This document shows, piece after piece, positions 4,296-34,753 of a DNA stretch of 36,678 bases. The position numbers and the translations under genes were made by a program. The stretch's first letter is position 1; each line of letters opens with the position of its first letter. The notes beneath the pieces are model-generated. The model was not told the DNA's origin. It saw nothing but the letters and a program-made list of their open reading frames with translations, and made no database searches. The DNA is from a virus: IMG/VR virus record IMGVR_UViG_3300027983_000045, positions 1 through 36,678 of that record, one strand, 5' to 3'.

Positions 4296-5552
4296 TTAAG
4301 ATGTAGTGTATGTGTAATTAGTAAATCACATATCGTATCTTACAAGATAAGATACTAGGTGTGAAGTATATCATCGATGCCTCAGTCACCGCACTTCTAT
4401 GGTTTGTCATGCCGTAGTGATTACATCAATAGAAAATGATGCATCTGAGAAATATGCATCAACGGTAGATCAAACTTGCGTACCACTAATGCGTATTTGC
4501 AATGAAGCGTTTGTTGAGACTCAAACTGATAGTGTTCAAGTAACCCTGTATGTTCATCCTCTTACTGGAGTTCATGAGCATATCATTACGTATGTTGTAC
4601 TACTAAAACCAGTAATTCCAATTGAGCTCGCTGTATAAACTGTCCCAGCAATTATTGTTGATGGTCTATTTCTTGCCTCATCGACCAATTGTTTTGCGTT
4701 TACAGCTCTGACTTCGTCAGTACCTGTTATTGCTTCAGCATCTGTTAGGATCTCAATAAATCACCTCTGTGCAGCACTTGCTGCGATCTGATCTCTTAGT
4801 AGGAGTTGTGTTATTCTGTTATCTACTCCGCCTTGATTGAGTACAAATTCGTTTGCATCTGCTGTAGTAGTTACACTTGCCTTAAGAGATATAGACTTCC
4901 TTTGTTGTACGGGAGTGGCTACAAGCTCTGCAGCTGTTTCTCCTGTTGCTGTTCCTGCTGTAATCTGTGCATCTGTTGCAATTTCTACTTTACCCGATAC
5001 AGTCTCACTAGCATTTGGTGTTGTACCCGTAGCAAATGACGCCCATGCTCCTCAGATGTATTGATTGAGTACTCCACTTGTAGTATTCAATATGATCATA
5101 CCATTAGCTCCTGTGAGTGCGTCTCTCTGTGCTTCTGTGAGAGACTTACCTGACATACCTGCATAATTAGTCGCTGCACTCCGTGTCCGATCGGCATCTG
5201 AATCTAGCTTAGATGAAATAGAGGACACAACGCCTTTCCAGAACTCATAGTTGTTACTGAGTCTAACTATTGAACCTATTGAGTGTGTTTTAGCTGAATA
5301 GTTCAAACTTGCTCACTTTTCCAACGTAACGTTGTTGATTGTGATTGTTTTAGCTCAAGCATCATATGCGTTAATTTCTGCTAGCTGGATTTTGTCGTTG
5401 TCTGGATTAATAATGATATATGTTGTAACTCATGCTGGAAATGTAAATCAAGGTGTATCATTCACGTTGATTGTACCTGTTGATCAATCCCACTCCTGTG
5501 ATAGTGTGGTTTCGAATCAGTCTACTAATGGATATTTAGATATATTTGACAT
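4296..5552 (-). CDS. Receptor-binding tail protein / tail fibre
   Basis: 418 residues. A beta-rich N-terminal domain (YPLVDGFETTLSQEWDG, then FTFPAGVTTYIIINP) is followed by a linker and a fibre-type segment, SETVSGKVEIATDAQITAG and AAELVATPVQQRKSI, a signature common in phage tail fibres. The C-terminal 120 residues form another beta-rich Ser/Thr-rich domain, probably the receptor-contact tip. ATG 5552 overlaps the upstream stop as TAATG, so translational coupling is likely. The gene lies between a neck protein and the CHAP virion protein, as expected for an adhesion device. The family is recognised from sequence pattern only; the receptor is unknown. Confidence 0.75.
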
Positions 5553-7078
5553 TACAATACGTTGTTATAATTAAATAGTTCTACTGGTTGACCATCAACA
5601 TTGATAGTTATCTTTTCGAATATGAACTGTACTGTTCAACTAATGTTTACTGCTATAGTAGATAGATACTGATACATTGGTACTTTGATTGTAAAGGGAT
5701 ATAGTTTAAGATCATTACCAGTATTAAGTCATCATATAGGATCTAATCATAGTGGTCTCTGTCCTAATGGTTGTGATCATGTTCTATTTATTGTTATGTT
5801 TGTATCTGTTATTGTTGCTTCCTGTACAACTCATGAATCTCATATGATTTTTATTGTTATCTCTCATCACTCTTGTTTAAATCATGTTATATCTACAAAT
5901 GATACTGAGTATGTTTGTCACGGGTCTCAGAAATCAAATGACTTTGTTTGTAGTTCTGCCTGTATTTTTGCTCAGTCGTCATCAAATCATACTTCTAGCT
6001 CATACATCTGTCATCATAGTGCTGATGTGAATACATGTTTAGCTATTCACTCGTCTGTTATGTACTCTCACATATCAAACATCGGTGGCAGTAGGTATTC
6101 TGACCATCATTGTGTACTACTTGAGTAGACTAGTGTTTTATCTGGTCTATCATCTCAGTCAGAATCATAACAAAAGTAATAATTATTTGTTGCTTTGTTG
6201 TAGTACGCTACGTTAGAGTTATAGAACTTTGGCTGTATAAGTTTTGTCAGCTCCCTCACTTTTTCTCATAAAGGTTTACTTTCTAACGCAGAAGCTCACG
6301 TAACTCAGTTTCTAAACTTGAGTGTATCTACTCATCTATCTGATAGGAATACAAGTGAGTTTTCCACAACTGATACTGATCTATCTGAATATCCTCATGA
6401 TTGTGTATCTAGCTTAGTTCCTGACTGTCATGGTAGATAAGCGTACACAGTATTATCCTTGAATAATAACACGGTCTGACCGTACTCATATAGTGCGTTG
6501 ATCTTGCCTCACTCTTCTCATCATATTACTACTGCATCCGTAGTTATTGTGTTGGCGTTGGCGGGCTGTACCGCAGTGTGGTATATTGTGATTGGATTTG
6601 CAATCTCTCCTGTACAGTAGATCGCATCTAATAGATATGATATATACTTACACTTTGGTTGTGTTGGATATTCTGTGTATGTTGTACCATTCCAGCTAGC
6701 GTAATTGTTATATCCATCGCACATATAGACTATGTTCTTATATACGGCAAAATCCCATCTAGTGGGATTGCCGTCTCAGTCTACTGCTGTGAGTCCTGTC
6801 TTGATGCTTGACCAGTTTGTACCATCAAACTTATACATCACAGTGCCTGCTACTCATAAGCATATGATAGCCCCTGTGTCATCTCTCTTGTGAAAGAAGT
6901 AAGAGCTGAACGGTGTTGATCATACGCTGTTTCCAAACTTAATATAACCTCTTCTTGTTTGTACTTGGTTTGCTTGGTTATACAGCATATTAGTCATGAT
7001 TGAAAAATCTCCATCACCTATAGTAGATGATTGTGTGAGATTAAGTCATCATGTGAATTTATTATATTTCTTTAGCAT
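5552..7078 (-). CDS. Neck/stabilisation protein, P22 gp10-like
   Basis: 508 residues. The N-terminus (KKYNKFTGGLNLTQSS, then MTNMLYNQANQVQTRRGY) matches the start of phage stabilisation or tail-attachment proteins: a GG-L-N motif, an Asn-rich stretch and an R-x-G motif. The body has repeated beta-strand units such as VMYKFDGTNWSSI, ENSLVFLSDRGVDTLKF and YYNKATNNYYFCYDSDG, suggestive of a beta-propeller. Aromatic and Gly-rich segments use TGA often. The gene sits between a head-tail connector and the receptor-binding protein, where a P22 gp10-type hub would be expected. No close homologue could be confirmed. Confidence 0.62.
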
Positions 7079-20738: not shown

Positions 20739-21083
20739 TTACTTACGTGATAAAGAAGAATTCTGACCGTATCTTTTAACGTTGATTAGTGTCTTTGGGC
20801 TACTATGTATGCCCATTAGTCTCTCTAGCTCGTCCTGTGTCAGGGACTCACCTAGTAATGCGGGTTTTCAGCCCACTATTTTGTGGAGTGTATTCAGTTT
20901 AGTTTCAAGATTTATAGCTCTTAGGAACTTCCCCATTTTCATATAGGTGAATAAGTCGGATTTCCTAGAGTCGTCTCTAGTTCGTTTGTAGTTAGTTTTC
21001 ATTTGTAACTCATATAAACAATAAAGCGTCTTTAAAAAAAGAAAACCTTGGTTTGTGTCAGAATACTTTATATTCGTTTTCAT
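20739..21083 (-). CDS. First leftward early gene, unknown function
   Basis: 114 residues. Basic N-terminal half (KTLYCLYELQMKTNYKRTR, DDSRKSDLFTYMKMGKFL), then LGESLTQDELERLMGIHSSP, a stretch that could be part of a DNA-binding helix bundle, and a C-terminus KRYGQNSSLSRK. It is the first gene after the strong promoter at 21186-21214, a position often held by host-takeover or regulatory proteins. No family recognised. Confidence 0.55.
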
Positions 21084-24813: not shown

Positions 24814-26376
24814 TTATTCAAAGAATCTCAACCAATCTACTCTGTTATAGTTTTCATAATCGAATCAGTATCTCAGTTTCAATATCAAATCTTGTCACAA
24901 TCAAGCTGTAAATGTGGATCTATGTGTGTATGTTGATATATCAGTAACTGTTGTTGTATCATTGTATCTCGTGATTCTATAAATTCAATTATTGTAGTAT
25001 ATCTCATATACAAACCGTCCTGTAAATCATCATGAAGAAGAGTATTCAGATCATTGTGTCGTTCAATCTCATATTCCACTAGTTCATCAATAACTACTTG
25101 CAGTAGTCATATTAATATAGTGTCATGGATTTTTATTTCGATTTGTGGTTTCTTGAACTGGAAACATTCATCCATTTACATTGAATACTTGATCTCATCA
25201 TCGAGTACTAGACTGCAGATACATTCTTACTTGACACTTCCACTCTCATATTGCTGATATGTTTTTCTTGAGATGTCCTGCTCAATCACTTCATCATCAA
25301 GCTGGATATAATAGTCATCATGTTACTCATAATCCATTCCCATATGATATTACATTTGACCATCCTTCTGTTGTAAATTCTGCTGTACTATCAAAGTTTT
25401 TAGTATGAGCAGCGATAGTATGGTCTAGCAGTGTAGGACGCACAAAAGCAGGATCACTCACAGTATATTTTTTAGCATAGATCCAATCCCAAGTGGAGTT
25501 ATATCATTGTCATGATAACACATTATCATATCTATATCATATCGTTATGGGTTCAGAAGATACTGTATTTGATATACTTGTTATATCGTGTGATGAGACT
25601 CAAGTCGCATAGTTTTTTATATTTATCCTCACCAAGTTTGATTTTATTTTTATAGTTTGTAGTATATCTACATTATCTGCTATAGCAGGTGCTATATCTG
25701 GTCGACTGGAGTCGTTTCTATAGTAGACAGTTCAATTGTGATCTAAAATACCAATTCAATTACTAGAGCCTATATAAGTACCAAGTGACATATGTCAGCT
25801 AGTAGATTTGCTTATAGTTTTTGTAAGTGTAACCATTTCTACTCAATCACTCAGTGTAACTATCGAACTTAATCTACCTGTCGTATTGCTACCATTCAGC
25901 TTATCTCACGATACAGAAAATCAAGTGCCATTGACTACTGTTCGTTTTCAAGTATCTATTGACGCTCCTACAAAATCATCAAAGAATATAAAAGTATTTG
26001 TACCATTACACACATTGCTCGTGTCCCCAGTGACTCACATATAAATATCTTTTCCTGTGTCGAGATTTTCAGTAACTTTAACCCAGATCTTCGCTAACTT
26101 GTTGGATCAAGATCCTGTGACATTTTCTACCCAAAACGACAACGGTGTTGATTGGTCGCTGGAGTAAAATCTAAGACTACCACTGATTCATTTTCCAGTC
26201 GGAAATAGTGTAGCTAGTGAGTCCACATGAAACTGGTGTCAAGATGATCAAGATGATTGTCATATTAGTAGACTAACTTGATAATTCGTGCCTGCACCTG
26301 CTGATCAAGAAATTGACAACTTAGTTAGTCATCAACTTGTCGACCACATAAATGCTTGCATCAATCTCCTAGACAT
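24814..26376 (-). CDS. DUF2341/ConA-like tail adhesin
   Basis: 520 residues. The N-terminal module (GAGTNYQVSLLIGQSSG, LRFYSSDQSTPLSFWVENV, NKLAKIWVKVTENLDTGKDI, NTFIFFDDFVGASIDTG) is the DUF2341 pattern, ending in the FFDDF motif that leads into a concanavalin-like lectin domain (about 160-330). The C-terminal half has repeated beta strands and Gly/Ser-rich loops (TASSYGGTSGIGDGTTQG) ending LRYGFDYENYNRVDWLRF. Surface glycan binding is the known role of such modules. ATG overlaps the upstream fibre stop (ATGTCTAG). The TGA-rich frame is chosen over another open frame within it. Confidence 0.78.
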
Positions 26377-28903
26377 AGGCTTTTCAGATATTGAGATAAA
26401 AGTTTGTACCATCGTAGTATAATGTTGCTATATCTATTGCACTTGCGGTCGTAGATAATGTAGTTCATGATGGTTTCTTTACGCTTGCTGGTCGTGTTGC
26501 TGTTTTGCTACCAGTGACATCTTGAGTTAGTTTGAGTACATAAGTCTGACCTACTGTCGGATTATTCAGCGTGAAAGTACAGTTTCCTGTCATGCTTAGC
26601 TTTTGTGCTGTTCAGTTGTTGAGGTCGATTGTCTTAGTTGTTCCACTGGTTCAAGCATCATACTCATTGCCTGCTGACTCGCTGGGTACTCGTCATGTTG
26701 TACCTGTCCCTGTGGATTTCTTCCATAGATTACCATTGTTTTTATCTCTATAGACCGATCATATATTAGCAGTGACCACTCAGTTTGGTATTCCAGTTCA
26801 TACTGACTCAGTAGTTCAGTCTTGGGATATTGCTCAATTTACAATCGGAGTTGTTAGTGTTTTGTTTGTTAGTGTTGATGTACTTGATACCGTAGGAATT
26901 TCCACACCACCAACAGATAGTACTCACGCTGATGTGACTCTCATTTTCTCTCATAGGACTGAAGCCAAATGAGTTGAAAATACTAGATCTCAGTTTCATG
27001 CTGATGTTCTAACAACATGAACTCCTCACCAAGCAGCTCATGTGCTTCCAGCACCAAATACCATTCAAGTATAACAATTAGGGTATGTGGTGGTATTGGT
27101 TACGTCTCTCATTACAAACTGCTTTTTGTCGTTGATTAGATTAAAGGTTCAAGTTCGGTTTGCATCTGAGTTAGAGAGAAGAAATTGTGTGGAATTGGGG
27201 AGGACTTGTGCGGGATTGATTGTTCAAACTGTTATTGTCGTTCAGAATAGTTGATCCTCTGTAAATGTATTAGTACTAGCAAGATTAGCTTTGAGATTGT
27301 TTGCGGTGGTTGCAAATGCTGTAGTAGCTATCTGTGTTGTGTTAGTTCCTGCTGTTGCTGTTGGTGCTGTTGGAGTGCCTGTTAGTGCTGGAGATGCAAT
27401 ATTGGCTTTTAGATTAAGAGCTGTTTGTTGTGCAGTAGATACTGGTTTATTTACATCAGTTGTATTGTTCACGAGATCTAGTGTAAGTGCACTAAGAAGT
27501 CAGGTCCTTGTTACTGACCCAGTGAGACCAACAACCGCTTGAACCGCATCTGTTTGATCGTGTTTGCTCCGGTTAGGGGCGTAAGTGGTAGTAGATGCGT
27601 TGTTTACCACGGATATAATATTGTCTCCTATCGCAAACTCCACACCATTGACTGTACCAGCCACAGACACATAATAAAACCGCCCAATTTTAGCAGAACC
27701 ACCTCATGGAAATGTGCCCGCTGAAGCATTCCAATCTCCCTTGTAGATCATCCCGTTTGCAAGAGCCGCAATGTCTGCATCCATTGTATCGAGGTTGACT
27801 GCTTGAGTTACGGTAATATGTCATACTTTTGTACTTGCAGTCGCATCAAATGATATTTTATCGTTGTTTGCTGTGATATCAGATGCTTGACCTGCTGTGA
27901 TACCTACTTTATCGTTGTTTGCTGTGATATCAGATGCTTGACCTGCTGTGATACCTACTTTATCGTTGTTTGCTGTGATATCACTCTCCATTGTATCGAG
28001 GTTGACTGCTTGAGTTACGGTAATATGTCATACTTTTGTACTTGCAGTCGCATCAAATGATATTTTATCGTTGTTTGCTGTGATATCAGACACATTTATT
28101 CCAGAGTCTTTGATCAGCTTTCCTGTGGCTCAATCATAGAGTGTAATATTATTATTGACTGAACTTGCTGGTCAGGTTACATCTCATGATCCTACTCATG
28201 TTGCAGTCACTATCGGGTTTGCTGGGTCTGCACTATCTACAGTTATCCCTGCACCAGCTACGACTGAGGCTACTCATCCTCCTCAACCAGATCCTCATGA
28301 CCTTCATGGTATAACTATCTTATTTAGTTTACTTTTAACATAATTTCTAGTTTCTTCTTTTGTGAAAGTATTATCTTTAGTCACAAAGTTCTTATCCATC
28401 GCTCCCGAAACTTCATCCCTTGTAGGACGATCACTGATTTCATCTTTTATGTTAGCAAATTGTTTATCTATCCCTTTGATTTCTGACATCTCATGACTAT
28501 GTTTTTTCTCCGCTTTCTTAGCGAGGTTTTGTAGTGTCTTGGTATTATATACCTTTTGATCTTCTTTGATGCTCCTGAGCTCTGAGTCAACGGATGCAAG
28601 CACCTTTGAGGGCATCTTATCCAACTCTTTCTTAGTAGATTCGAGGCTTACAATCTTCTTATCAATATCTTTTACTTTTTGACTTAGTCACTTAGACAAT
28701 CAAGTCATATACTCTCATTCTCTTTGTGCAGAAAAATCTGATCTTTTGCCCTTAAATCAATTAAGAACAGCGTATCAGAAATTGTCAAGTTCTCACAACT
28801 CATAGCTAATATTGTTTCTATCCAATAGTTTGTTGAGTTGTTCTCTTGTAAGTTGAGAACTCGCAAGTTCTTTTATGTACTCCGCAGAGGTCATCTTAGC
28901 CAT
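26369..28903 (-). CDS. Long tail fibre with internal repeats
   Basis: 844 residues. The N-terminal 200 residues form charged coiled coil (QKVKDIDKKIVSLESTKKE, LQNLAKKAEKKHSHEMSEI), then a Gly-rich hinge (PGRSGGSGGGGGVASVVAG). A repeat region with SDITANNDKVGITAGQA units follows, then the fibre motif KANIASPALTGTPTAPTA. The C-terminal domain is NGVVTANIGSVYRDKNNGNL and NPTVGQTYVLKLTQDVTGS, ending ATLYYDGTNFYLNIGKAYV, a very common phage fibre tip. Its stop overlaps the adhesin start. A trimeric side fibre is likely. Confidence 0.85.
27780..28090. repeat. Nested 104-bp and 51-bp repeats in the fibre gene
   Basis: A 104-bp unit occurs at 27780-27883 and again, identically, at 27987-28090. Between them a 51-bp unit is present twice in tandem (27881-27931 and 27932-27982). 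The 51-bp unit is 17 codons, so copy number can change without breaking the frame. This looks like recent duplication within the fibre shaft. Confidence 0.9.
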
Positions 28904-28907
28904 TAGT

Positions 28908-29288
28908 TTATTTGATTAGTTCTAAAATTTTAGCTGTTAGGTTTTTACCGTTATGAATCAGAACATATTCCCATTGGTCTATATACTCGCAGTATTTACC
29001 AGCGATAATCTCTTCAGTCTCTACTTTATCCTTACCCTCGATAAGTGCAGCATGTTCTATCTCCTGCTCTTCCATCTTATCACTGTTTTGTGTGTAGAAA
29101 TAAATCTTATTATCTTTGATATTATATTCAAAAGGCTTGTCAGTAGCAGATATACGAATACTATAGTCGTTTGGAAACACTCAGCCTCTGTGACTTACGG
29201 GTAGTTCTGTGATCTGTATAGAAAGATCACCATCTACTGATAGTATGTTTTTATCTGTTTTGATCTCGTTTGTAATATATATAGCCAT
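28908..29288 (-). CDS. Hypothetical protein upstream of the tail fibre
   Basis: 126 residues, not recognised. It begins MAIYITNEIKTDKNILSVDG and is beta-rich and acidic: DKPFEYNIKDNKIYFYTQNS, EEQEIEHAALIEGKDKVE, QWEYVLIHNGKNLTAKILEL. Its length, beta content and place immediately before a coiled-coil fibre suggest a fibre-attachment or baseplate adaptor, which is inference. Confidence 0.6.
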
Positions 29289-29343: not shown

Positions 29344-30567
29344 CTAGTAAGTACTAGAGTTTAATTGCACATCTACCATCATCTTTGCTTGATCAGAGTA
29401 TGTGTTTACTCCGAATAAACAAGTCATTTTAGCAAATGATCCATTTCTAGCTTCAGATTCTACGATACTTACGTTAGGAGTCTGTTGCACGACAAGAGCT
29501 GGTCCACTTCCTGCTACGAATAGACAGTGTTGTTTCTGAGCTGTAGCTGTCCATGTGTCAGTTCCATCAGTTAGTGCTTCAGTTACTACGATAGTACCAG
29601 CACCCTTGTGTGTAACTGTCATTGTGTTTGCTGAGTTGTCATTTACAGCTGAAATTCTAGCTGCAAATAATTTAACAACTTCAGACGTAGCTGTACCTAG
29701 TGCAACCTGAGTTGAGCTAGTTGTAGCTGGATCGTTGATCAATGCTGCAAGAGTAGCTCTTGTCACATCAACATTTGCTCCGATCAGGTAGTTACCAGCA
29801 GTTGTACCGATAGTAGATACTGCAGTAAATGTCTGTCCTGCTAGAGTGATTACATCACCGTTAGTAGGTTGTGTAGCCATAGCGAGTACAGCAGTTCCAG
29901 TAGTATTGTTGGTCTCATAAAGATCAACACCACTGAACTTACCGAAGAACCCTCTGCGGTTTACATCGTCACCCATTGATGTATCTCTTTGTGCACCATA
30001 TAGTGTCAAGAATTCTACGAACTCTGGAGAGATTGCACCCTTCATGTTATCAGTAGAAACATTAAGTTTCTTGAATTTCTTTCTTACTGCTGCAACAACA
30101 TTGATTACATTAGAACTAGATAGTGAGATACCTTGTCCACCTGTACCACCAAGATCTCCTGCATCTACAACTGAAGCTGAGTTTAGTGTTTCGCCAAATA
30201 CAGTAAGGTCTATTTGACCTTTCATTTGTGCTCCAAACTGTTCACCGTAGTAACCTGCAAGTGAAATATCTGATTGAATCTCGTCGAATTTTTCAACAAA
30301 GAAACGAGTCGAGAACTGAAAGTCAATAGACATAGTCTCATCGCTTGCTGTGTAGAAAGATTCAGCAATATCTGCACCTCTTACGTGTACTCCTGGAGCA
30401 CCATTAGGATCGATATTACCAAATTGTCTGTGGAGAACATCTCCTGATCTTAGAGATGAACTATAAGAAGTGTCAGCAAATTTCTCTGCTTGATTCTCCT
30501 TTTTGAAAGTCATCTGCATTTTCTTTGCCCAGATCTCTGGAAAAGTTGGTTGTACTGAATTAGCCAT
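29344..30567 (-). CDS. Major capsid protein with inserted domain
   Basis: 407 residues. The coat core (PTFPEIWAKKMQMTFKKENQ, then VHVRGADIAESFYTASDETM, DISLAGYYGEQFGAQMKGQI, KKLNVSTDNMKGAISPEF) resembles P22/N4-type coat proteins. Residues about 235-345 are an inserted beta domain (GDVITLAGQTFTAVSTIGT to TIVVTEALTDGTDTWTATA), like other phage coat insertion domains. Remarkably, all 36 glycines use GGN codons and TGA never occurs. The gene follows the scaffold by 30 nt and precedes a terminator, as expected for the most abundant protein. Confidence 0.85.
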   Translation of the reverse strand: MANSVQPTFPEIWAKKMQMTFKKENQAEKFADTSYSSSLRSGDVLHRQFGNIDPNGAPGVHVRGADIAESFYTASDETMSIDFQFSTRFFVEKFDEIQSDISLAGYYGEQFGAQMKGQIDLTVFGETLNSASVVDAGDLGGTGGQGISLSSSNVINVVAAVRKKFKKLNVSTDNMKGAISPEFVEFLTLYGAQRDTSMGDDVNRRGFFGKFSGVDLYETNNTTGTAVLAMATQPTNGDVITLAGQTFTAVSTIGTTAGNYLIGANVDVTRATLAALINDPATTSSTQVALGTATSEVVKLFAARISAVNDNSANTMTVTHKGAGTIVVTEALTDGTDTWTATAQKQHCLFVAGSGPALVVQQTPNVSIVESEARNGSFAKMTCLFGVNTYSDQAKMMVDVQLNSSTY

Positions 30568-30597: not shown

Positions 30598-31134
30598 TTA
30601 TGTCCCTGATACTCTATATTTGTCCATCTTTGAGTTCTTGCTGATATATTCATCGACTTCGTCATCTGACATAGTTCATATAGACTTAGGTCATGTGCCG
30701 TAATCTCTGTCTCAGAGTAGTCTTGATTCTTTTGCTTTCTTTAACTTCTCTGATTTACCAAATCAATAGTCATCGATAACATCATATGGAGACATTCAAG
30801 TCTGTTCTACTAGTTTTCTAATTGCTTTCTCGTATTGTTTAAGTTCTGGACTAGATAATACATCGTTGTCGAACTCTCTTTCTGCCAGTCTTTTTGCTAC
30901 GATACTATCGATATATGGTTGCATTTTAGCTTCTACTACTGGTACTCGTGATTCATCTTCTTCTTCTCTCGGTTCGCTCTTCTTTAACTCTTGTGTTTTA
31001 CGAGTGTAGTCTGATTGTCTCATGTAACCGCTCTGTAGTTCATCAAGTGTTAACTGCTCGCCGTTTACTTCGTATAGCGTTTGTCAGTCCTCCTGAGTCA
31101 GACTTTCGTCAGTTGTTCAATTGGTTGTTGCCAT
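30598..31134 (-). CDS. Scaffold-like protein
   Basis: 178 residues, acidic and helical, directly upstream of the coat gene as scaffolds normally are. LYEVNGEQLTLDELQSGYM then RQSDYTRKTQELKKSEPREE is the N-terminal pattern of a common phage scaffold type. A basic, helical C-terminus (GKSEKLKKAKESRLLGDR) could bind coat subunits. It guides procapsid assembly and is removed before DNA entry. Assignment by pattern and synteny. Confidence 0.72.
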
Positions 31135-31463: not shown

Positions 31464-33227
31464 TTATACTGGTGGTTGTGGTAATTGTTGTTGTCACATC
31501 AATCATCACAATTCTCACATAGGTATCTGTGGCTTAATAAGTTTCTTGACATCTATCTGCTCAAATAGTCAAAGATTTTGCTTTGCTAGATATTCGAGGT
31601 CAAATCACTGGAATCACATCCCCATATATACTCATGCAATGTTTGCTACTGCTGCTGCGTCATCTCTTTTGCTCTGTTGGCTATCCCATCAAGTGGATCA
31701 TATCTCAATACTAATGTTGAATCTATTTGCTGCGCTTATAAAAGTTTCTTTTCTCATATCCACAACTCTTCAATCTTCTAGCTTAATACTAATAATTCAT
31801 TCCATCTTGTCTGCTGCGACTTGTAGTATTTTATAGGCTGACCTAATAAACCACTGTTCGAAATGCCTCTTATGTGCATCTGATACTACATTGCTTTCAG
31901 CATAATCAATCTTTGCACCAGTTGCCGTATTAGTTAACGCTCATGTAGATTTAGTATTAGCCGTATCTACTGAGAAAGTTACTGCTTGTATCTGTCTCTC
32001 TTGATCTTGTAGATTGCCAAAGTAATCAGACGACAACTGTCTATGTGGTAGCTCATACAAGTTTTCTTGTGCTGCTGCTCCACCATTTGATGCTAGTATG
32101 ATAGGATCATTAAGTGTAGATGGATTAACTCCACTTTGTGGACTTCGTACAAACTGTCTAGTAATTGCTTGATTGATATACTTAGCTGCACTTGTCTTTT
32201 GGAAGTTCATCTCTTTCTGAAGTCCTAGCATAGGCTCTACTAGTCCTACTGCTAGAAATGACTCTGTATCGTAACTACATCTCGCATCCTCAAATGGAAT
32301 ATGTGTTATTTCTTCCGCATATACTATTACTAGATTGTTTACCACCCAAAATTCATATAGTTTTTCTCAGCTTTGGTCTTCTTTTTTAGTAAGGTCGTAA
32401 TATCCGTAATAACATTTAATGTCTAGTGATCTTGCGTTGAATTTACTTGGATTGTCTACTCAGGTTATACCTAGTATAGACTCTATCTGAGATCTGTATC
32501 ATCTTTCATCTGAAGATTTATCGCTTGATGCCGTACAACACTGTACAAGTTCCTCAATATTCATAAACCTCTCAGGGCTTTTGGTGAAGTACGATAATCT
32601 AATTTTATTATTTGTCTCTATGATACAAGGGAAGTCTTCCAGTCTGGTGTATCTTGGATCGAAATATATATCACTCCACGACTTAATATCAATACAAGGG
32701 TATGAGTCAGATACTTCTTCGTCTACTGAGTCTACTATGTCTGTGTATTCTCCATCATCTGTTTCAGTGATTTCTTCTTTTTTACCTTTATTTCTTGATA
32801 ATTTGTACTTATATGATATTTTTGATAGACATAGTCCATAAATACAAAAAGCTTTAGCTACTAGCTCAGCTGTCTCAATCGTATCTTGTTTTTTGTATAT
32901 TTTTGTGAGATATGCTTTGATACCTAATGCTGCATCTTCTTCTGATTTCTGTTTTGCCTCATCTTCGATGTCCTTGTTAGTACTAGATACTATCCAAGCA
33001 GGAGATCAAGACATTATCTTTGCTGTTGCTTTTTGCACAATTTCGTGGGCTTTGTTGACCTTAAAATCTGGAGTCCATTTATCACTAGTAGGTGTTCTAA
33101 ATGTTGAGTACTCTTCCAATATATACAACATCCTTTCTTTTCGTGGAGTAAGACGATCACTATAATCATTATAGGTATCTTCTACGTGTTTAGCAATATC
33201 GTTTTGTTTTTCTGGGGTTAGTTTCAT
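31464..33227 (-). CDS. Portal protein
   Basis: 587 residues, a usual portal length. It begins KLTPEKQNDIAKHVEDTYND, contains IKSWSDIYFDPRYTRLED, the D-I-Y-F-D-P motif of P22-like portals, and PFEDARCSYDTESFLAVGLV with a long helix pair (LVEPMLGLQKEMNFQKTSA, YINQAITRQFVRSPQSG). The C-terminus is Gln/Pro-rich (LMGQQQLPQPPV). It forms the ring through which DNA is packed, and overlaps terL by 10 nt. Confidence 0.88.
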
Positions 33228-34753
33228 ATTAGTGTAGGTAAACCATTACTGTCATAGGAAAATTTTAGTGTTGTTTCTACTTTTGTTCATGGTGTCAGGT
33301 TTATCATATCGTATACCATTTGCAGTGAGTCAATAATATCGTCATGCTTACCTCTTGGAAATCTCTTGAGTTCTAGCTCTAGCTCATCCATTCAGTGCTT
33401 ATGAAATATCTGTCCTCTTCTGTACGGTGCGATCAATCTTCTGATCTTAGTTAGCTTATCACCTGTTTGGCTTATTTCGTCTATACTTGCATAGATATTT
33501 CTTCTCTGCAACTCTAGTCTAAGATGCTGTGCGATCATAGTTTGTGCTTGAAAAGCCTCAATACCTACTTTCTCTGGATTCCATTTCTGTACATGATAGA
33601 TTATTTTGTCTTGTAACTCAACAGCCGAATACTTACCTGCCGTATATTCTAATATATATACTTGGTCTGATGAAAGTCAAACAGTGATTATACTTGTCTG
33701 ATCATTGTGTTGTCACTTTTTAAACGCTGGATCTACTGATGTAAATATCCTTAATGATGTTGGTGTTTTATTCTCTGTTCACTCTCAATGATACTTAAAC
33801 CATTCCTCATGGAACTCTTGTGTTTCCTTGTTGACTGGCTCTTGTTGATATTGGGTAGATCGTGCGGACATTCATCACTCTCAATTCATCATATCGTTTT
33901 TTAGTATTTCTAGTGTTGACAATGAAAATCTATTCTCATCTAATGCTTCGCCTTTTGCTCTAGTAATAGTTCAATATTTTTCAGTCTCCCATACTTCGTC
34001 ATGTTCAGCTATTGCTGGCATACTAATTATTTCGTACTTGGATCAACCATTTGTCATTCTATCTATTAAGTATCAACATAGATCATTATCGTGTGTTCTC
34101 TGCATTATGATAATAATTGCATCTTTCGCTGGATCAAATAGCCTACTGGGTACTGTTGTTAAAAATAGGTTATTTACTCAATCTCTAATAACGTCTGACC
34201 TGTCTGCTTCTTTTGGTTTGATTGGATCATCTATTATAAATATATTAGATCTTTTACCAGTAATTGATCAATCAAATCATGTTGCATAATATGCTCATCA
34301 TTCAGATGTCTTCCAGTGTTCTTTTGTGTCTTGTGATTTGTCTATGCCATTGCTTCTTGGGAATACAGACTTAAATGTATCTGATTTGTAGTAATCTTTT
34401 GCTTCGCTTGAAAATCATTGAGTAAGTGTCGTGGAGTATCATGTTGCTATTACTTGTAGATAAGGATTGTTTCACATTGCATGTACTGGGAAGCTCTTAG
34501 TTATTAGCTCTGTCTTTCAGTGTCATGGAGGTATGTTTATGATTAGCCTTGTAATCTCTCATTTGATTACCTTTTCTAGCCTATCTGCTATTACTTTATG
34601 AAAAGGTGAAACGTGAAAGTTAACTATTCCTTTTGGTTTTTCATTCTTAAAATATAATTGAATAAACTCAAGAAGCGACTCCCTTTGTGGGGCGTGTATC
34701 TCCTCAAGTCTTCTTATGGCTAGTTCTTTATAAGCTTGTTCTTTTAGAGTCAT
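33218..34753 (-). CDS. terL: Terminase large subunit
   Basis: 511 residues. ATPase domain: RLIINIPPGHGKTELITKSF with Walker A PPGHGKT (K80, T81) and NIFIIDDPIKPK with Walker B D175-D176. Nuclease domain: FTSVDPAFKKGQHNDQTSI, VGIEAFQAQTM and RGKHDDIIDSLQ provide the metal-binding acids. About two dozen of roughly 35 glycines, including both in the Walker A G-x-G-K, are TGA, the best single proof of code 25. The start overlaps the upstream stop (TAATG). It cuts and pumps DNA through the portal. Confidence 0.95.

Follow-up and report, generated by a model that had tools for sequence, protein, structure and literature searches.

Why does the major head (coat) protein gene of a phage that freely uses TGA for glycine contain not a single TGA codon? 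The window, that is, the whole 36,678-nucleotide stretch of viral DNA analysed here (IMG/VR record IMGVR_UViG_3300027983_000045), carries coding frames that are open only when TGA is read through, as in a genetic code 25 phage. In this phage TGA encodes glycine, as the TGA columns of its terminase large subunit gene (terL), when compared with a standard-coded homologue, align with glycine (9 of 20) and never with tryptophan (0). UGA-glycine was reportedly described in SR1 by Campbell et al. in 2013. The genes concerned are the following:

28908..29288, (-) strand: 126-aa gene after the coat gene; TGA at 1 of 6 glycines, which are too few to judge
29344..30567, (-) strand: major head (coat) protein gene, 407 aa, phrog_267, the subject of the codon counts and codon signature below
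30598..31134, (-) strand: scaffold gene, phrog_3927 head scaffolding protein (E = 8e-10); TGA at 7 of 12 glycines (58%)
31464..33227, (-) strand: portal / head-tail adaptor gene, phrog_332 head-tail adaptor (E = 3.5e-8), adjoining terL; TGA at 17 of 31 glycines (55%)
33218..34753, (-) strand: terL, phrog_38 (E = 1e-96), Pfam Terminase_6N/6C; TGA at 24 of 35 glycines (69%)

The coat gene was recognized by its match to the phrog_267 major head protein profile (E = 1e-17, residues 3-274), and the gene order is terL, portal/adaptor, small ORF, scaffold and head protein. No Pfam match was found for it, and its AlphaFold2 model (mean pLDDT 35) is unusable and says nothing for or against an HK97-like fold. 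Part of its C-terminal half (residues about 220-345, the LAMATQPTNGD region) is common to the standard-code Manatee Spring phage MW202577.1, the identity being 31% across residues 171-361. Profile searches of the 126-aa gene (PHROG, Pfam) were without match. Upstream regions of 17 window genes, including the coat gene, are A-rich and mostly without an obvious Shine-Dalgarno sequence.

The coat reading frame spans 407 codons followed by a TAG stop, and its 36 glycines are encoded by GGT (21), GGA (13), GGC (1) and GGG (1), which reproduces the all-GGN count of the first-pass annotation. TGA in contrast accounts for 460 of 757 glycine codons (61%) in the remaining annotated window genes (Fisher p ~1e-14); at a rate of 58%, the probability of finding 0 of 36 is 3e-14. 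Both the improbability of this outcome by chance and the share of about two thirds TGA in terL had been stated at first pass, and both were borne out. Among annotated window genes with at least six glycines, only the coat gene has zero TGA (the next lowest being 1 of 6 at 28908-29288 and 1 of 7 at 20739-21083), so that no other long TGA-free gene is present among them; the coat gene is also the sole window ORF of >150 aa that the standard code leaves open. The replication genes are TGA-rich (dnaB, 24 of 36; recT, 12 of 13). Of the long genes, the one richest in TGA (43 of 65 glycines) lies near the tail genes and encodes a 532-aa protein with a DUF2341 domain (24814-26412, (-) strand).

The loss of TGA from the coat gene is a frame-specific codon effect, and composition is not its cause. 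A constraint acting on DNA or RNA, whether directed against TGA as a trinucleotide or arising from base composition, could appeal only to a slightly higher overall GC (.41) of the coat stretch; it is refuted by the frame-specific counts and keeps practically no probability, as the other two sense frames contain 29 TGA triplets and the opposite strand 26, and coat GC3 (.26) equals that of the rest of the phage.

Codons other than those of glycine are shifted too. ATA encodes 1 of the 17 coat isoleucines versus 51% elsewhere in the window, ATC rises to 65% versus 22%, TTC to 57% of phenylalanines versus 27%, and AGG and CGA are absent from the coat gene. Host-like codon weights were derived from EF-Tu versus the genomic background in nine code-25 genomes, and the most depleted codons in them are ATA (log2 -2.8) and TGA (-2.2). 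When genes were scored with these weights and glycine was excluded, the coat gene ranked first among 40 window genes; over the other window genes adaptation showed no correlation with TGA fraction, a point against selection of this kind.

When EF-Tu was compared with its genomic background in 12 code-25 genomes, its TGA fraction proved significantly lower in 11 (2 of 41 versus 68% in G003, for example), and uL2, a gene of the ribosomal-protein type proposed for checking at first pass, is likewise depleted in most of them. EF-Tu of these likely hosts matches the coat bias in avoiding both TGA and ATA. Together with the ranking of the coat gene, this match supports the suggestion of the first-pass annotation that selection favours rapid or faithful translation of the protein made in the largest amount. 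A class-wide EF-Tu search gave mostly standard-code genomes and led to a second search on lower-ranked genomes; of another 67 genomes in the class, 44 have between 1 and 24 TGA in EF-Tu and none has more. The one exception among the 12 is G007 (EF-Tu, 35 of 38 TGA; background, 86%), a code-25 draft (L161-L170, L235-L239, L322-L361) where TGA predominates among the glycine codons of EF-Tu itself and of uL2 (15 of 16).

A further suggestion at first pass, that the TGA-reading tRNA sets decoding limits, is compatible with these data and finds no support in gene copy number: G003, G010 and G031 each carry one tRNA-Gly(UCC) and one tRNA(UCA). In G007, one divergent tRNA-Gly(UCC) and two tRNA-Trp(CCA) were found, and a UCA tRNA was not found in the 600 kb of incomplete assembly. 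Gene copy number as the cause of TGA avoidance was therefore set aside, no difference being seen between regimes with the G007 draft incomplete. Trp and CGN codon usage was likewise dropped as an indicator of conflict with UGG, since G003 and G007 use TGG to a similar extent.

The age of the depletion was read from related coat genes spanning 43-90% identity. TGA is absent from the coat of L002 (90% identical; 0 of 37) and near-absent from that of the code-25 phage L128 (46-47% identity; 3 of 33), and all but one of the relatives found by search from L128 are also TGA-free (L315 and L316, each 0 of 35; L317, 0 of 37; L318, 0 of 32; L319, 0 of 34; L321, 0 of 33); the TGA share in the rest of each related record is 29-60%. 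The sole exception among related coats is L320 (13 of 35), though its coat ranks first in adaptation. At conserved glycine columns of eight related phages, the TGA/GGN counts are 13/190 for the coat, compared with 34/52 for the portal, 60/84 for terL and 15/20 for the scaffold, and 14 of the 16 coat columns with GGN in every phage contain more than one GGN codon. Moreover, glycine sites that are GGN in the window are TGA in L128 at 3 of 24 positions in the coat versus 12 of 22 elsewhere (p = 0.004), and 34 of 62 four-fold sites differ between the two coats. These alignments show that the TGA depletion is old and kept by selection over deep divergence. A turnover comparison of the window with L002/L004 (42 of 209 shared glycine codons switching class in other genes versus 0 of 34 in the coat) was discounted, since those two coats have diverged too little for it to count (11 of 118 four-fold sites differ). 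The terL genes of L005 (419-1897) and of L004 (8454-9986) are nearly identical over the C-terminal 40% and very different over the N-terminal half, a sign of recombination within terL.

Depletion extends to other head-protein families. Code-25 phages were gathered by a terminase motif with in-frame TGA and prophages by head-protein profiles, and head proteins were called by PHROG profiles regardless of TGA content; the TGA background of the records in this tally is 39-85%. Coats of other profile families were found depleted in L110 (0 of 26), L133 (0 of 28), L138 (6 of 31), L139 (4 of 26), L126 (2 of 16), L107 (6 of 16), L082 (13 of 33), L091 (6 of 29) and L092 (9 of 34); in L080 (10 of 28) the depletion is not significant. 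PF03864 coats in the class, of which none has TGA, were looked at and set aside. Coats without depletion are those of L088 (19 of 28), L089 (21 of 29), L090 (25 of 34), L140 (24 of 30) and L171/L172 (28 of 30). Some coats elsewhere are thus TGA-rich, a finding that the first-pass annotation had named, for related phages, as telling against its reading; they comprise prophages with weak adaptation, a single partial exception and cases of a regime that favours TGA, and most coats are depleted. Over 18 phages, coat TGA depletion did not correlate significantly with coat ATA depletion (rho 0.41, p 0.09), a relation weakened by two TGA-favouring phages.

Very probably, then, the coat gene is under translational selection and follows the preferred glycine codons of its host, a pattern that looks like ordinary codon adaptation, pushed to its limit with a codon of second rank. 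Support comes from the depletion itself, its restriction to the reading frame, the wider adaptation, the deep persistence, the other coat families and the EF-Tu bias. The coat protein, which we infer to be the most abundant of the virion, would be pushed to the codons that code-25 bacteria, the presumed hosts, use in their most expressed genes. In most of these bacteria GGT and GGA are the preferred glycine codons, with TGA common and second-class; in other phage genes TGA and GGN exchange freely, and the coat would be purged of TGA because decoding of UGA is proposed to cost speed, accuracy or both.

Most of the exceptions fit such selection, though in part by explanations made afterwards. 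L088, L089 and L090 tell against universality, as these prophage coats are TGA-rich despite the TGA-avoiding EF-Tu of the same genomes; because they are weakly codon-adapted, weak selection or decay may lie behind them, an after-the-fact account. The coats of L140 and L171/L172 are the most adapted by host weights (ATA 3 of 33 and 0 of 27) yet 80-93% TGA, and would fit hosts resembling G007, a host link that is assumed. L320, with 13 of 35 TGA and top-ranked adaptation, fits neither account.

Whether accuracy counts for more than speed is a question within translational selection and not an alternative to it. If UGA were error-prone, being misread or terminated upon, a coat assembled from hundreds of copies of one subunit would tolerate no such errors. 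Proteomics has detected rare UGA misreading (PMC4032931), UGA-Gly and UGG-Trp have been noted to conflict through wobble (PMC8629427), and when terL, portal and scaffold of eight phages are pooled, conserved glycines are preferentially GGN (Mantel-Haenszel odds ratio 1.85, Z 3.4, the Z being inflated by kinship). Yet the scaffold alone trends opposite to terL and portal, the coat also avoids ATA and TTT, codons that carry no such risk, and TGA is the main glycine codon in G007 and in the coats of L140 and L171/L172. An accuracy component is hinted at by these data, and its primacy over speed seems a real possibility that falls somewhat short of even. More tentatively still, UGA might be a still handicapped glycine codon in code-25 bacteria, with tRNA-Gly(UCA) perhaps kept scarce against reading of UGG (Trp); coat genes and EF-Tu would then record the handicap, and G007, L140 and L171/L172 would represent a later stage of completed reassignment. 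If so, coat TGA content would tell the decoding regime of an uncultured phage's host.

Two histories that dispense with translational selection were weighed against the same observations. A recent import of the coat gene from a standard-code phage, leaving too little time to gain TGA, draws on the existence of standard-code coat relatives (L003, L006/MW202577.1, L106) and on a run of TGA-poor structural genes in L134/L135, where import may act even if not here. These relatives are merely 20-31% identical to the window coat, and among those found none is closer than the code-25 relatives; coat GC3 does not differ from that of the remaining phage genes, and non-glycine preferences like those of code-25 EF-Tu are not expected of an imported gene. 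Because near-total TGA absence is old and common to code-25 coats that have diverged down to 43-47% identity, recent import is very unlikely. Marginally less credible again is the idea, also raised in the first-pass annotation, that the coat must be readable outside a code-25 state, either before a code switch or in a second, standard-code host. Read in the standard code, the coat gene is indeed the one long ORF that stays open, and dual-code-compatible phages have been proposed for Gracilibacteria (PMC10746230). A coat alone would be useless under the standard code, however, because the partner and replication genes (scaffold, portal, terL, dnaB and recT) are TGA-dense and unreadable there; in addition, no tRNA genes were found in a search of the window, and the coat gene shifts codons unrelated to stop. 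Translational selection on the coat gene accordingly stays the preferred reading.

Its closest precedents lie in other systems. Phage structural genes favour the codons that strongly expressed genes of the host prefer, to a degree that amino-acid content and GC3 do not explain (Lucks et al. 2008, PMC2266997), and the coat gene resembles them in its host-preferred codons; the shifts there are graded and concern ordinary codons, whereas here a reassigned stop is almost totally excluded from the coat but not from portal, scaffold or terL. In Blastocrithidia, a gene has fewer in-frame reassigned codons the higher its protein abundance and CAI, and genes for cytosolic ribosomal proteins contain few of them (PMC12153298), a similar depletion of reassigned stops from highly expressed genes; that system is a eukaryote with UAR as Glu, UGA as Trp and UAA still serving as stop, unlike bacteria and phages with UGA as Gly, and outside the coat TGA is often the most used glycine codon here. 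Code-25 phages of Absconditabacteria/Gracilibacteria (PMC10746230, PMC13059738) share the code, the kind of host and the genome-wide in-frame TGA. In the available portions of these reports TGA is handled genome-wide through coding density, with no gene-to-gene or coat account, and one such phage has a tRNA-Gly(UCA), which the window lacks. For code-15 phages, recoding of late-gene stops has been suggested to hold back the structural genes when the host has the standard code (PMC9523058). In-frame reassigned stops in phage genes are common to both cases, but here the coat is free of the recoded codon and the adjoining late genes are full of TGA; a late-gene code switch is not the pattern of the window, where the replication genes are TGA-rich, the main structural gene is TGA-free and no tRNA was found.

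The literature searched contained no report, for code 25 or its phages, of host-preferred codons in structural genes or of loss of reassigned stops from highly expressed genes; a mention in Campbell et al. 2013 is possible. These coats show that the codon used most often for an amino acid can be a reassigned stop and nevertheless a poor choice, and that phages with this code follow the host preference in the protein they probably make most. They offer a sequence-only readout of UGA decoding quality in uncultured code-25 bacteria. In practice, standard-code gene callers would recover the coat gene of such phages intact and break most of their other genes.

Further genes were also noted in code-25 phage records, the first two of them kept out of the coat tally for want of head-protein profile support. 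A 394-aa coat candidate in L134/L135 is TGA-free (0 of 34) at the coat position, and L134 itself carries a tRNA gene with anticodon UCA (1342-1417, (-) strand; called SeC by ARAGORN), probably a tRNA-Gly for TGA. A 449-aa gene of L136 (8568-9917, (-) strand) has no profile match and no TGA among 50 glycines, and may encode the coat or another abundant virion protein of its phage. In L135, a 328-aa gene (5366-6352, (+) strand) with weak tail/baseplate matches has TGA at 0 of 28 glycines and possibly encodes a second very abundant virion protein.
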